Positions 13,350 to 15,800 of a stretch of DNA of 64,000 nt are shown here, piece by piece (within the stretch, counting starts at the first letter, position 1; every line of letters begins with the position of its first letter). Under the pieces are notes generated by a model that made no database searches, had not been told where the DNA came from, and was given only the letters and a program-made list of their open reading frames with translations. The translations under genes and the position numbers were made by a program. Source of the DNA: Xylanimonas ulmi (GTDB lineage Bacteria > Actinomycetota > Actinomycetes > Actinomycetales > Cellulomonadaceae); contig NZ_SGWX01000001.1 of NCBI RefSeq assembly GCF_004216535.1, positions 3,782,001 through 3,846,000 on the forward strand, given 5' to 3'.

Positions 13350-15578
13350 TCATGGAGCCCGTGTGGCGGACGAGCCCCGCGTGGTGGGACTTTGCGGCGT
13401 CCACCGCGGCGGCACCGGCCCGAGCAGGTCGTCGCAGCGTGATGGGCGCACCGTGGTGGGCGCACTCGTCGCGCGTCCCTCGGTCCTCCTTTCCGCGTGT
13501 CGCTTGCGACTCTCAGGCGCCTGCGAGCGAGTGTGCTGGTCAGAAGGGTGGGTCGCCGAGGTCGCCGAGGTCGCCGAGGTTGTCGGGGTCGTCGGGGTCG
13601 TCGGGGTCGCCGAAGTCGTCCGGGTCGTGGTGGCGAGGTGGCGAGGTGGCATGCCGGCGAGGTCGGGGTGGGGGTCGTCGAGGGCAGGTGGTGGCGGGTC
13701 GGGCTCGGGGTCGGGCGGGGGGAGGGCGGCGGGCTGCGGCCGTCTGTCGTGGATGGTGGTGGGCGCTGGCGCGGGGTGGGTGGTGTGCGTGTGCCCGGTC
13801 GGCGTGGTCCATGTCAGGGTGCCCTCGTCGTCGTCTTGACGGACGGCGAAGCGGGTTTGGTGCTTGAGGACGTGGTGGTGGCGGCACAAGTGGGCGAGGT
13901 TGTCGGGCGCGGTGGGGCCGCCGAGGGCGTGGGCGAGGGTGTGGTCCGTGTCGGCGGTGGCGGCGGGTCGGGTGCAACCGGGGAAGCGACATGTCGTGTC
14001 GCGAACCTTGACGTAGTGGCGTAGGTCGGCTGGGGGCCGGTAGGCCTCGACTCCGACTGCGAGGACCCTGCCGGTGTGGGGGTGGGTCAGCAGGCGCGTG
14101 AACGAGGTGGCCACACCGGCCAGCTCGCGTGCGGTCTGCGGGTCGATCGGGATGGTCCCGTCGAGCAGCGCGGGCTCGTCCGTCCGGCCCAACAAGGTCA
14201 GCACGGGGACGGTGACGTAGATCTTGGGCCGCACCGACCGAGCGATACGGGCCAGGTGGACGTCCGTGTCGCCGAACTCCACATCGCGTGTCGAGGCGCG
14301 AGCCGCGCTCGCGTGGTCGAGGGCGTGCCCGGTGTCCGGCCCGAGGGCGGGGTTGGCGACGGCGCCGGCGGCCGTGACGGCGCCGGCGGCCGTGACGGCG
14401 CCGGCGGCCGTGACGGCGCTGGCGGTGTTGACAGCGCTGGCGGCGGAGAGGTCGAGGGTGCCGTCGTCCAGCAGGAGGGCGCAGGCGACGTCGGAGCGCA
14501 ACTGTGTCAGGGTGCGCCCATCGCCCTGGGCGCGGGCGGCGCGGGCGACGGTGGTCAGGCGGTCTTTGATCGCGCAGACGGCCGGCGCGGGTGCGAACAG
14601 GGTCAGATAGGCCATGCCGTCGCGCGCGGGGTCGGTCCACACCCCGCGTTTGGTCGCGGCCTCCTGGTGGCGGACCTCGGGCGGGGTGGGGCAGACGCGT
14701 TCGCGCGCGCGGCGCACCGTGCGGGCGAACGTGCGCGTGTTCTGGCGGGTGGCGGCGGGTGCGACGGCCTCGTCCAGGCGCGCCGCGGCTCGCTCGTTCA
14801 GTTCTGCGACCGTCTCGGCGACCTTGGAGGCGTTCGCCCACGCGGCCCGCCCCGACAGGGCCGCCGTCAGGGTGCGCGGTGCCCGGGCGGCCAGCGCCTG
14901 AGCCGCGCACATCCGTGCGCCGATGACCTGTTCGCCCTGGTGGGTGCCCAACGCGATCTCGGCGACCACTGCCCGCCGGGCCAGGTCGGCGCGCCGGGTC
15001 GTGCCCGCCGCGCGGAGCATCGGGCCGTGCTCCGCCAGCAGGTCCTCGGCACGCAGCGCCTGCCTGCGCGCCCGCTCCAGCAGCACTCCTTCGAGGGCCT
15101 CGAGCGCGTTGACCCGCGAGCGCACCTCGGCGATCGCCTCCACCGTCTCGTCCAGGTCGCTCATCCCGACCGCCCCGCGCACCTGGAGCAGGCTCCTCGC
15201 GTCCGACGGCAACGACGGGCAAGGCTCGGGCCAGCTCCGGGCGGCGGGGTCGAGGGGCGAACGGCCCAGCAGCGAGTTGACGAGGCCGGGACGGCCCGGC
15301 AGCCGTGACGCGAACGATCCGTCGTCCTCGATCGGCGCCGGCGCGAGCGCCGCCAGGCGCGCACGCACCTCGGCCCGAAGCGGCTCAGGGGTCGGCGCGC
15401 CGGTCGCGGCGACAGGGTTCGGACCGGAAGGCCGCGCGCCGAGCGCGGGAGAGTTGACGGCCTCGGGAGCGCCGAGGGGCGCAGGGGAGTTGCCCACCTC
15501 GGGCGTGTCGGTGCGGGCGTGGGATCGGCTCGCGCCCGCCACGTCTCCCGCCACGTCTCCCGCACCGTCCTCGACCAT
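13350..15578 (-). CDS. DUF222 and HNH endonuclease domain protein
   Basis: A 742-residue protein of the DUF222-HNH (mycobacterial 13E12-repeat) family. Residues about 150-330 form the helical DUF222 domain. The HNH nuclease near 555-605 retains all parts: CRFPGCTRP, then TDHTLAHALGGP, DNLAHLCRHHHVLKH. Between them is an Ala-rich stretch encoded by an 18-bp tandem repeat, and the last 130 residues are Pro/Thr/Arg low complexity. The N-terminal 100 residues are also disordered-looking. A LexA-type box and a -10 box abut the ATG, predicting DNA-damage induction and a leaderless mRNA. The biological role of the family is not established; nuclease activity is inferred from the motif. Confidence 0.9.
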   Translation of the reverse strand: MVEDGAGDVAGDVAGASRSHARTDTPEVGNSPAPLGAPEAVNSPALGARPSGPNPVAATGAPTPEPLRAEVRARLAALAPAPIEDDGSFASRLPGRPGLVNSLLGRSPLDPAARSWPEPCPSLPSDARSLLQVRGAVGMSDLDETVEAIAEVRSRVNALEALEGVLLERARRQALRAEDLLAEHGPMLRAAGTTRRADLARRAVVAEIALGTHQGEQVIGARMCAAQALAARAPRTLTAALSGRAAWANASKVAETVAELNERAAARLDEAVAPAATRQNTRTFARTVRRARERVCPTPPEVRHQEAATKRGVWTDPARDGMAYLTLFAPAPAVCAIKDRLTTVARAARAQGDGRTLTQLRSDVACALLLDDGTLDLSAASAVNTASAVTAAGAVTAAGAVTAAGAVANPALGPDTGHALDHASAARASTRDVEFGDTDVHLARIARSVRPKIYVTVPVLTLLGRTDEPALLDGTIPIDPQTARELAGVATSFTRLLTHPHTGRVLAVGVEAYRPPADLRHYVKVRDTTCRFPGCTRPAATADTDHTLAHALGGPTAPDNLAHLCRHHHVLKHQTRFAVRQDDDEGTLTWTTPTGHTHTTHPAPAPTTIHDRRPQPAALPPPDPEPDPPPPALDDPHPDLAGMPPRHLATTTRTTSATPTTPTTPTTSATSATSATHPSDQHTRSQAPESRKRHAERRTEGRATSAPTTVRPSRCDDLLGPVPPRWTPQSPTTRGSSATRAP
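14358..14447 (-). repeat. 18-bp tandem repeat inside the DUF222-HNH gene
   Basis: Five units of GACGGCGCCGGCGGCCGT on the plus strand; the first three are identical and the last two diverged. They keep the frame and encode repeated AVTAAG on the minus strand, expanding a linker between the DUF222 and HNH domains. Confidence 0.85.
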
Positions 15579-15584
15579 GAGGCC

Positions 15585-15590
15585 AGTCTA
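15585..15590 (-). promoter_or_regulatory. -10 box of the DUF222-HNH gene
   Basis: On the minus strand this reads TAGACT and ends six bases before the ATG at 15578, so transcription would start at or next to the start codon (leaderless). Confidence 0.6.
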
Positions 15591-15608
15591 TTCGAACACC
15601 TGTACGAA
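15591..15608 (-). promoter_or_regulatory. LexA/SOS-type box
   Basis: The plus strand core at 15592-15607 reads TCGAACACCTGTACGA. It matches the actinobacterial/Gram-positive SOS pattern TCGAAC-N4-GTTCGA with a single mismatch. It sits immediately upstream of the -10 box, within the -35/-10 spacer, where LexA binding would block RNA polymerase. LexA control of 13E12-family genes is known in Mycobacterium tuberculosis. Confidence 0.75.
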
Positions 15609-15800
15609 TGACCAGGTCACCGCTCATCCCGCGACACCATTCATCCCGCCGTGATCCGCGCGCGAGCCCTCGGCGGCTCCCCGTGCCCCGGCGCCGGGAC
15701 GCCCTGCCCCGATCCCGCAACGGGGGATCACCCGCGACCCGATCGCGCGCCCGTCGCTCGCGCAGGCCCGCCACACCGAACGGCCGCTCGCGCAATCTCC

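Follow-up and report, generated by a model that had tools for sequence, protein, structure and literature searches.

A putative damage-induced DUF222-HNH nuclease gene behind a leaderless SOS-type promoter in Xylanimonas ulmi

The 64-kb stretch of DNA analysed here (the window; positions 3,782,001-3,846,000 of the 3.97 Mb, single-contig genome of Xylanimonas ulmi) carries a gene that probably encodes a chromosomal, damage-induced endonuclease, which would be guided by a ParB-type reader domain and would process host DNA; we give this reading as a whole a probability of about 0.6. A more detailed version is offered tentatively, at somewhat less than even odds: DUF222 would be a ParB/Noc-type reader and the family a set of damage-induced, sequence-guided nucleases, one clade of which would mimic the SSB tail for action at stalled forks; in the window copy a short tandem repeat would be the point at which this tip was lost, or perhaps is switched, and control would flip between LexA and PafBC while mostly keeping the damage signal. 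DUF222 genes occur widely among Actinomycetia, frequently in multiple copies, and their role is poorly understood. The combination of a common damage switch, a ParB-like reader and an SSB-like tail provides a concrete idea of where DUF222-HNH nucleases act, and flipping between LexA and PafBC would clearly exemplify a gene family in which the regulator is exchanged and the signal is retained.

The gene and its promoter

The gene is located on the minus strand (13350..15578), with an ATG at 15578 and an open reading frame of 742 aa, and was assigned to the DUF222-HNH (13E12) type on the basis of this frame and of its identity to paralogs; 13E12 and DUF222-HNH are taken here to be the same family. 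Read on the minus strand, the start region consists of TCGTACAGGTGTTCGA (15607-15592), A, TAGACT (15590-15585), GGCCTC and ATG (15578). The first of these elements (15592..15607), identified from the sequence and a genome-wide box scan, is the SOS-type LexA box of the original prediction, which was recovered with one mismatch to TCGAAC-N4-GTTCGA; TAGACT (15585..15590), the putative -10 element of a leaderless promoter, was likewise found next to the box and six bases before the ATG.

Taken alone, the box is modest evidence, because 39 sites match it at ≤1 mismatch in the whole genome, compared to six for the reversed pattern; several of the 39 apparently lie within coding sequence. Five perfect LexA boxes are present in the genome, and at ≤2 mismatches the window contains eight sites versus 3.2 expected. 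A search for the same box before other family genes of this genome, which had been suggested as a check, found it at all five members detected by a protein search and the Pfam DUF222 model, each of them (5/5) with box, -10 element and start in the same layout. Three members (2454352, 3120418 and 3497955) have perfect boxes, and the copies at 3314093 and in the window share an identical single mismatch. The lexA gene of this genome has two one-mismatch boxes upstream, so that this type of site fits the cell's own LexA. The repetition of the layout on the five own paralogs and across the class (see below) gives strong support to the predicted leaderless promoter of SOS type.

Further upstream, 47-58 bases before the start and 17 before the box, lies a motif (TGTCGCGGGATG; 15625..15636, minus strand) whose TGTCGC core is common to the five own paralogs; by itself, this motif is not above chance within the window. 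In the own paralogs, a TGTCGCGAAATG-like motif precedes the LexA box by 16-17 bases (15625-15636 in the window), with genome positions 3120389, 3497987, 3499442, 3499458 and 3314126, and two extra tandem copies are present beyond the insertion sequence (IS) at one own paralog. The motif could be a candidate site for the ParB-like domain described below.

A promoter layout shared across Actinomycetia

The composite pattern TCGAAC-N4-GTTCGA-N-TANNNT-N7-TG was scanned at ≤1 mismatch in 296 Actinomycetia genomes, with reversed patterns as controls. This combination of box, TANNNT and leaderless NTG occurred at 109 sites in 58 of the 296 genomes, while all controls gave 0. At 50 of the 109 sites, which come from 16 genomes and include 11 sites from a single one, the downstream ORF was recognised by an iterative profile search that started from the window protein, ORFs of <40 aa from the start codon of the pattern having been excluded from the profile scan. 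Pfam DUF222 was called in 26 of the 80 downstream ORFs of ≥90 aa. The other Pfam matches, among the 25 of 35 families listed, included Y-family polymerase (4), 2OG-Fe oxygenase (3) and SAV_6107-like HEPN (3), single matches to LexA, RecA and a DnaE-type polymerase, and further single matches that are not obvious members of the SOS response, a P450 and an amine oxidoreductase among them. The composite pattern enriches for the SOS regulon, and DUF222-HNH relatives are the largest class that it caught. In the Pfam-defined sample described below, an in-frame start codon inside the box was present in 10 (perhaps 13) of the 26 family genes with a LexA box; the window gene has the other layout.

LexA and PafBC control within the family

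The motif of the RecA-independent regulator PafBC has been given as TGTCGG-N10-TA-N3-T in PMC8151990. Among 33 named relatives, no LexA box at ≤2 mismatches was found for most of the copies in Agreia and further genera of the Microbacteriaceae, and these LexA-less relatives bear TGTCGGTG-N8-TNNNNT-N6-ATG, which corresponds to the PafBC motif. Counted strictly, the 33 relatives comprise 22 with PafBC, one with LexA and 10 with neither. The exact leaderless PafBC composite was found in 189 of the 296 genomes, with at least seven matches to the reversed pattern, and was absent from the window genome; seven of the 30 PafBC-composite loci returned encode the DUF222-HNH family by profile.

A Pfam-defined sample was drawn from 70 fetched loci (30 returned by a PF02720 scan of 148 genomes and 40 hand-picked from the listing of that scan, with a tilt to high Pfam scores), two of which (L247 and L253) gave no HMM match. 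The 68 family genes used carry LexA in 26 cases, PafBC in 23, both in four, either in 45 and neither in 23, compared to 0 (LexA) and 0.3% (PafBC) per region in shuffled controls. Only one LexA box and six PafBC motifs were detected among 659 other ORFs of the named loci and the window, and six of these seven non-family matches are frames overlapping family promoters.

A quickly built tree comprised 100 proteins; L186 (<300 aa) was left out, and several rows, including L185, drew long-branch warnings. On this tree, the LexA and PafBC states of 65 labelled genes need at least 10 changes, compared to a mean of 21.5 after shuffling; therefore each promoter state follows the tree, yet switching has recurred. 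At four loci (L248, L263, L228 and L264), a single start is preceded by both a LexA box and a PafBC motif, which overlap or lie side by side. Judging from this arrangement of sites, these genes may be activated by PafBC and also repressed by LexA.

Domain organisation of the encoded protein

PF02720 (DUF222) matches were found in 110 of 148 sampled genomes, in a survey in which 14 first-look candidates were scored in most genomes, and reached up to 17 copies in a listed genome (E ≤ 1e-10). The DUF222-HNH label of the original prediction stands as far as relatedness is concerned, since three sister copies, 57-67% identical to the window copy, score over the PF02720 cut-off; at the level of the Pfam model it does not, the window copy having no match to PF02720 at E ≤ 1 and its residues 60-640 none at E ≤ 5. 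By homology and tree, the window copy is a divergent relative that can be placed beside the DUF222-HNH family.

The DUF222 core (aa 155-298; 14685..15116, minus strand) is a predicted ParB/Noc-type DNA-binding domain, based on predicted fold and, tentatively, on profile comparison. Its predicted structure matches the ParB/Noc DNA-binding core, and hhalign comparison with a ParB-type profile gave P 4e-4 and a probability of 35%, above all of 100 shuffles. A PDB profile search returned 1vz0 at only E 0.029; MAGUK chains came up at 0.045-0.27 in a region overlapping that match, and a Foldseek search without a second aligner gave nothing at E ≤ 0.001. Much of the region ahead of the core is of low confidence in the predicted model.

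The HNH nuclease domain (aa 511-603; 13770..14048, minus strand) has a McrA-like predicted fold. The Pfam HNH model scored it at 17.2 bits, below the cut-off of 21.4; the zinc cysteines and the catalytic H-N-H are present within the 742-aa frame as CRFPGC...DTDH...NLAHLCRHHH, a complete motif as originally noted. Between the two domains, a repeat scan identified an 18-bp tandem repeat of 4.8 copies within the coding sequence of the low-complexity linker (14358..14444, minus strand). Two relatives (L121 and L139) have kept the damage promoter and have no HNH zinc cysteines; from their sequences, they are possible dead nucleases. With Pfam at E ≤ 5, a match to a RecA-dependent nuclease (Ref) was obtained at 0.11 in one of 58 family members.

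The C-terminal tail

The window copy terminates in ...SSATRAP, without an acidic ...PF tip in its frame. Of its four nearest relatives in the genome, three terminate in RDPPF, GDPPF and GEPPF, and the SSB of this genome ends in NDEPPF. Close to a perfect 8-bp tandem repeat (GGTGGCGA, 2.8 copies; 13629..13650), the window gene leaves the reading frame of the sister genes, and a tail in another frame (13540..13628, minus strand), ending in ...GDLGDLGDPPF and not joined to the gene frame, corresponds to the SSB-like tip that the sisters carry.

Ends in PF are found in 26 of 146 complete family proteins, among which related copies are not independent (11 Agreia loci are in the PF list), versus 4 of 1089 background ORFs, which are stop-to-stop frames, many of them non-genes; two of these four are apparently alternate frames of family genes. 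By set, PF ends occur in 18/33 named relatives, 3/5 own copies, 3/63 Pfam-chosen genes and 2/45 LexA-site genes. A split of the tree supported by SH-aLRT 100 separates 39 rows, which include all 24 PF-ending ones, from 61 rows with none, and the PF-tip state needs five changes versus a shuffled mean of 21.4. In PF-ending members the third-last residue is P, C or A only, the positions -10 to -3 contain on average 2.5 acidic residues (1.35 in the other members), and the linker from HNH to tip, measurable in 13 of 26, spans 55-171 aa. A script pattern selected 15 SSBs from 13 genomes with tip-bearing members and from the window genome; all but one end in PF, the exception being one of two Brachybacterium copies, which ends in PSF. 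We infer that the SSB-like tip binds SSB partners.

Outside the tip clade, many members (L226, L235, L244, L251, L271 and others) end in -AA. Such ends occur in 28 of 108 proteins in two sets (31 of 146 overall), versus 21 of 951 background ORFs, again stop-to-stop frames.

The resemblance of the -AA ends to ClpXP degron tails would suit a programmed cell death or abortive-defence effector, in which a damage-induced nuclease destroys the host chromosome. In PMC9416677, overexpression of the HNH nuclease MSMEG_1275 has been reported to inhibit growth of M. smegmatis, and the purified enzyme to cut chromosomal DNA; however, only one of five overexpressed HNH proteins was toxic according to the same paper, in whose text the term DUF222 is absent. 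Multiple copies per genome on one common switch would be odd for a suicide gene, and we consider this explanation unlikely.

Mobility of the family

A possible tie to mobile elements, also raised in the original prediction, was not borne out: a search of 50,697 phage records with the window protein gave four partial matches, while neither 72,556 plasmids nor viral contigs scanned by pattern contained any. The four phage matches (MT835496, MT835497, MT835574 and MT835602), which are unannotated and of human faecal origin, are 40-43% identical at the HNH end and cover 16-18% of the query. No match to an Agreia copy was found in viral contigs; a distant family member had none in phages at E ≤ 1e-6, none in viral contigs, and four in plasmids, all non-mobilizable (E ≤ 1e-10). 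With the queries used, phages, plasmids and viral contigs thus contain hardly any members of the family, and carriage as mobile or phage cargo is not supported.

Elements that we take to be IS481-like are located directly upstream of the TGTCGC motif at two own promoters (2454336, L040; 3497939, L042), 99.9% identical to each other over 1173 bases and in opposite orientation. They are read as recent, separate insertions beside the gene and not as carriage of the gene, and possibly prefer a target adjacent to TGTCGC.

These two insertions, the multicopy state (five copies detected here, and as many as 17 PF02720 matches in one of the genomes listed) and the HNH chemistry might be expected of a selfish, homing-type nuclease that uses damage to spread its own copies. 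Such an element would sit poorly with the near-absence just described, and with a promoter state that follows the tree and alternates between two damage regulators, which leaves this explanation improbable.

Proposed mode of action

The most likely job of the protein is the processing of host DNA during damage, and not the carriage or spread of mobile elements. In an undamaged cell, LexA would occupy the box, which lies within the promoter spacer and immediately precedes the -10 element, and would block RNA polymerase. In the SOS response, RecA filaments trigger the cleavage of LexA after damage, and this would release the promoter. Judging from the TANNNT-N6-ATG arrangement, transcription would start at the first base of the ATG or at one adjoining it, leading to a leaderless message. 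The protein is predicted to read DNA through its ParB/Noc-type DUF222 domain and to cut it through its McrA-type HNH domain, on fold and profile evidence in both cases. In the sisters, a long flexible tail ends in the SSB-like ...PF tip, through which the enzyme probably docks to SSB-tail-binding proteins; this would place it at single-stranded gaps or stalled forks; the window copy, in its present frame, would act without this docking tip.

A role as the missing actinobacterial mismatch-repair nuclease has been proposed from co-expression for the 13E12 proteins of M. tuberculosis (PMC4181829), and is very improbable here, as a ParB-type reader and an SSB-like tip are not particularly suggestive of mismatch recognition. 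Least probable of all is a chance match of the box, with the gene outside LexA control: its one mismatch and the 39 genome sites, several apparently within coding sequence, would permit this, but the spacing is identical at the five paralogs found and the composite controls gave 0 in 296 genomes.

LexA control of 13E12 genes in M. tuberculosis was reportedly described by Davis in 2002 and by Smollett in 2012. Within the range of our limited literature searches, three findings are new: a promoter rule that holds across the class and includes switching between LexA and PafBC, the ParB-like core, and the clade with an SSB-like tip, although in the partial literature covered the absence of a precedent for SSB tails or PafBC in connection with HNH is weak evidence.

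Comparison with known systems

The likeness to ParB, Noc, Spo0J and KorB lies in the helix-turn-helix core, by predicted fold and, tentatively, by profile, but here this core is fused to an HNH nuclease. With the McrA-type HNH nucleases (EcoKMcrA, TagI, ScoMcrA) the protein shares the HNH fold and the zinc cysteines, whereas its partner domain looks ParB-like. The ...PF end of one family clade, the acidic enrichment before it and the long linker resemble the C-terminal tip of SSB; however, the tip is borne by a nuclease instead of an SSB, and is absent from the frame of the window copy. Phage Orf-HNH fusions, as reported in PMC4118853, similarly combine HNH with a protein of the SSB/recombination pathway. 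In the PafBC regulon, a parallel is found in the relatives from Agreia, Protaetiibacter, Naasia and others, which bear a PafBC promoter instead of a LexA one, while the copies of the window genome use LexA boxes. The 13E12 genes of M. tuberculosis (PF02720 with PF01844) are HNH genes under LexA, as already published (PMC4181829) and in agreement with the original prediction; PMC8151990 reports the induction of five HNH genes. They differ from the window clade, which is divergent and missed by the Pfam DUF222 model; the window type is leaderless, with the box in the promoter spacer, and has sisters with SSB-like tails.
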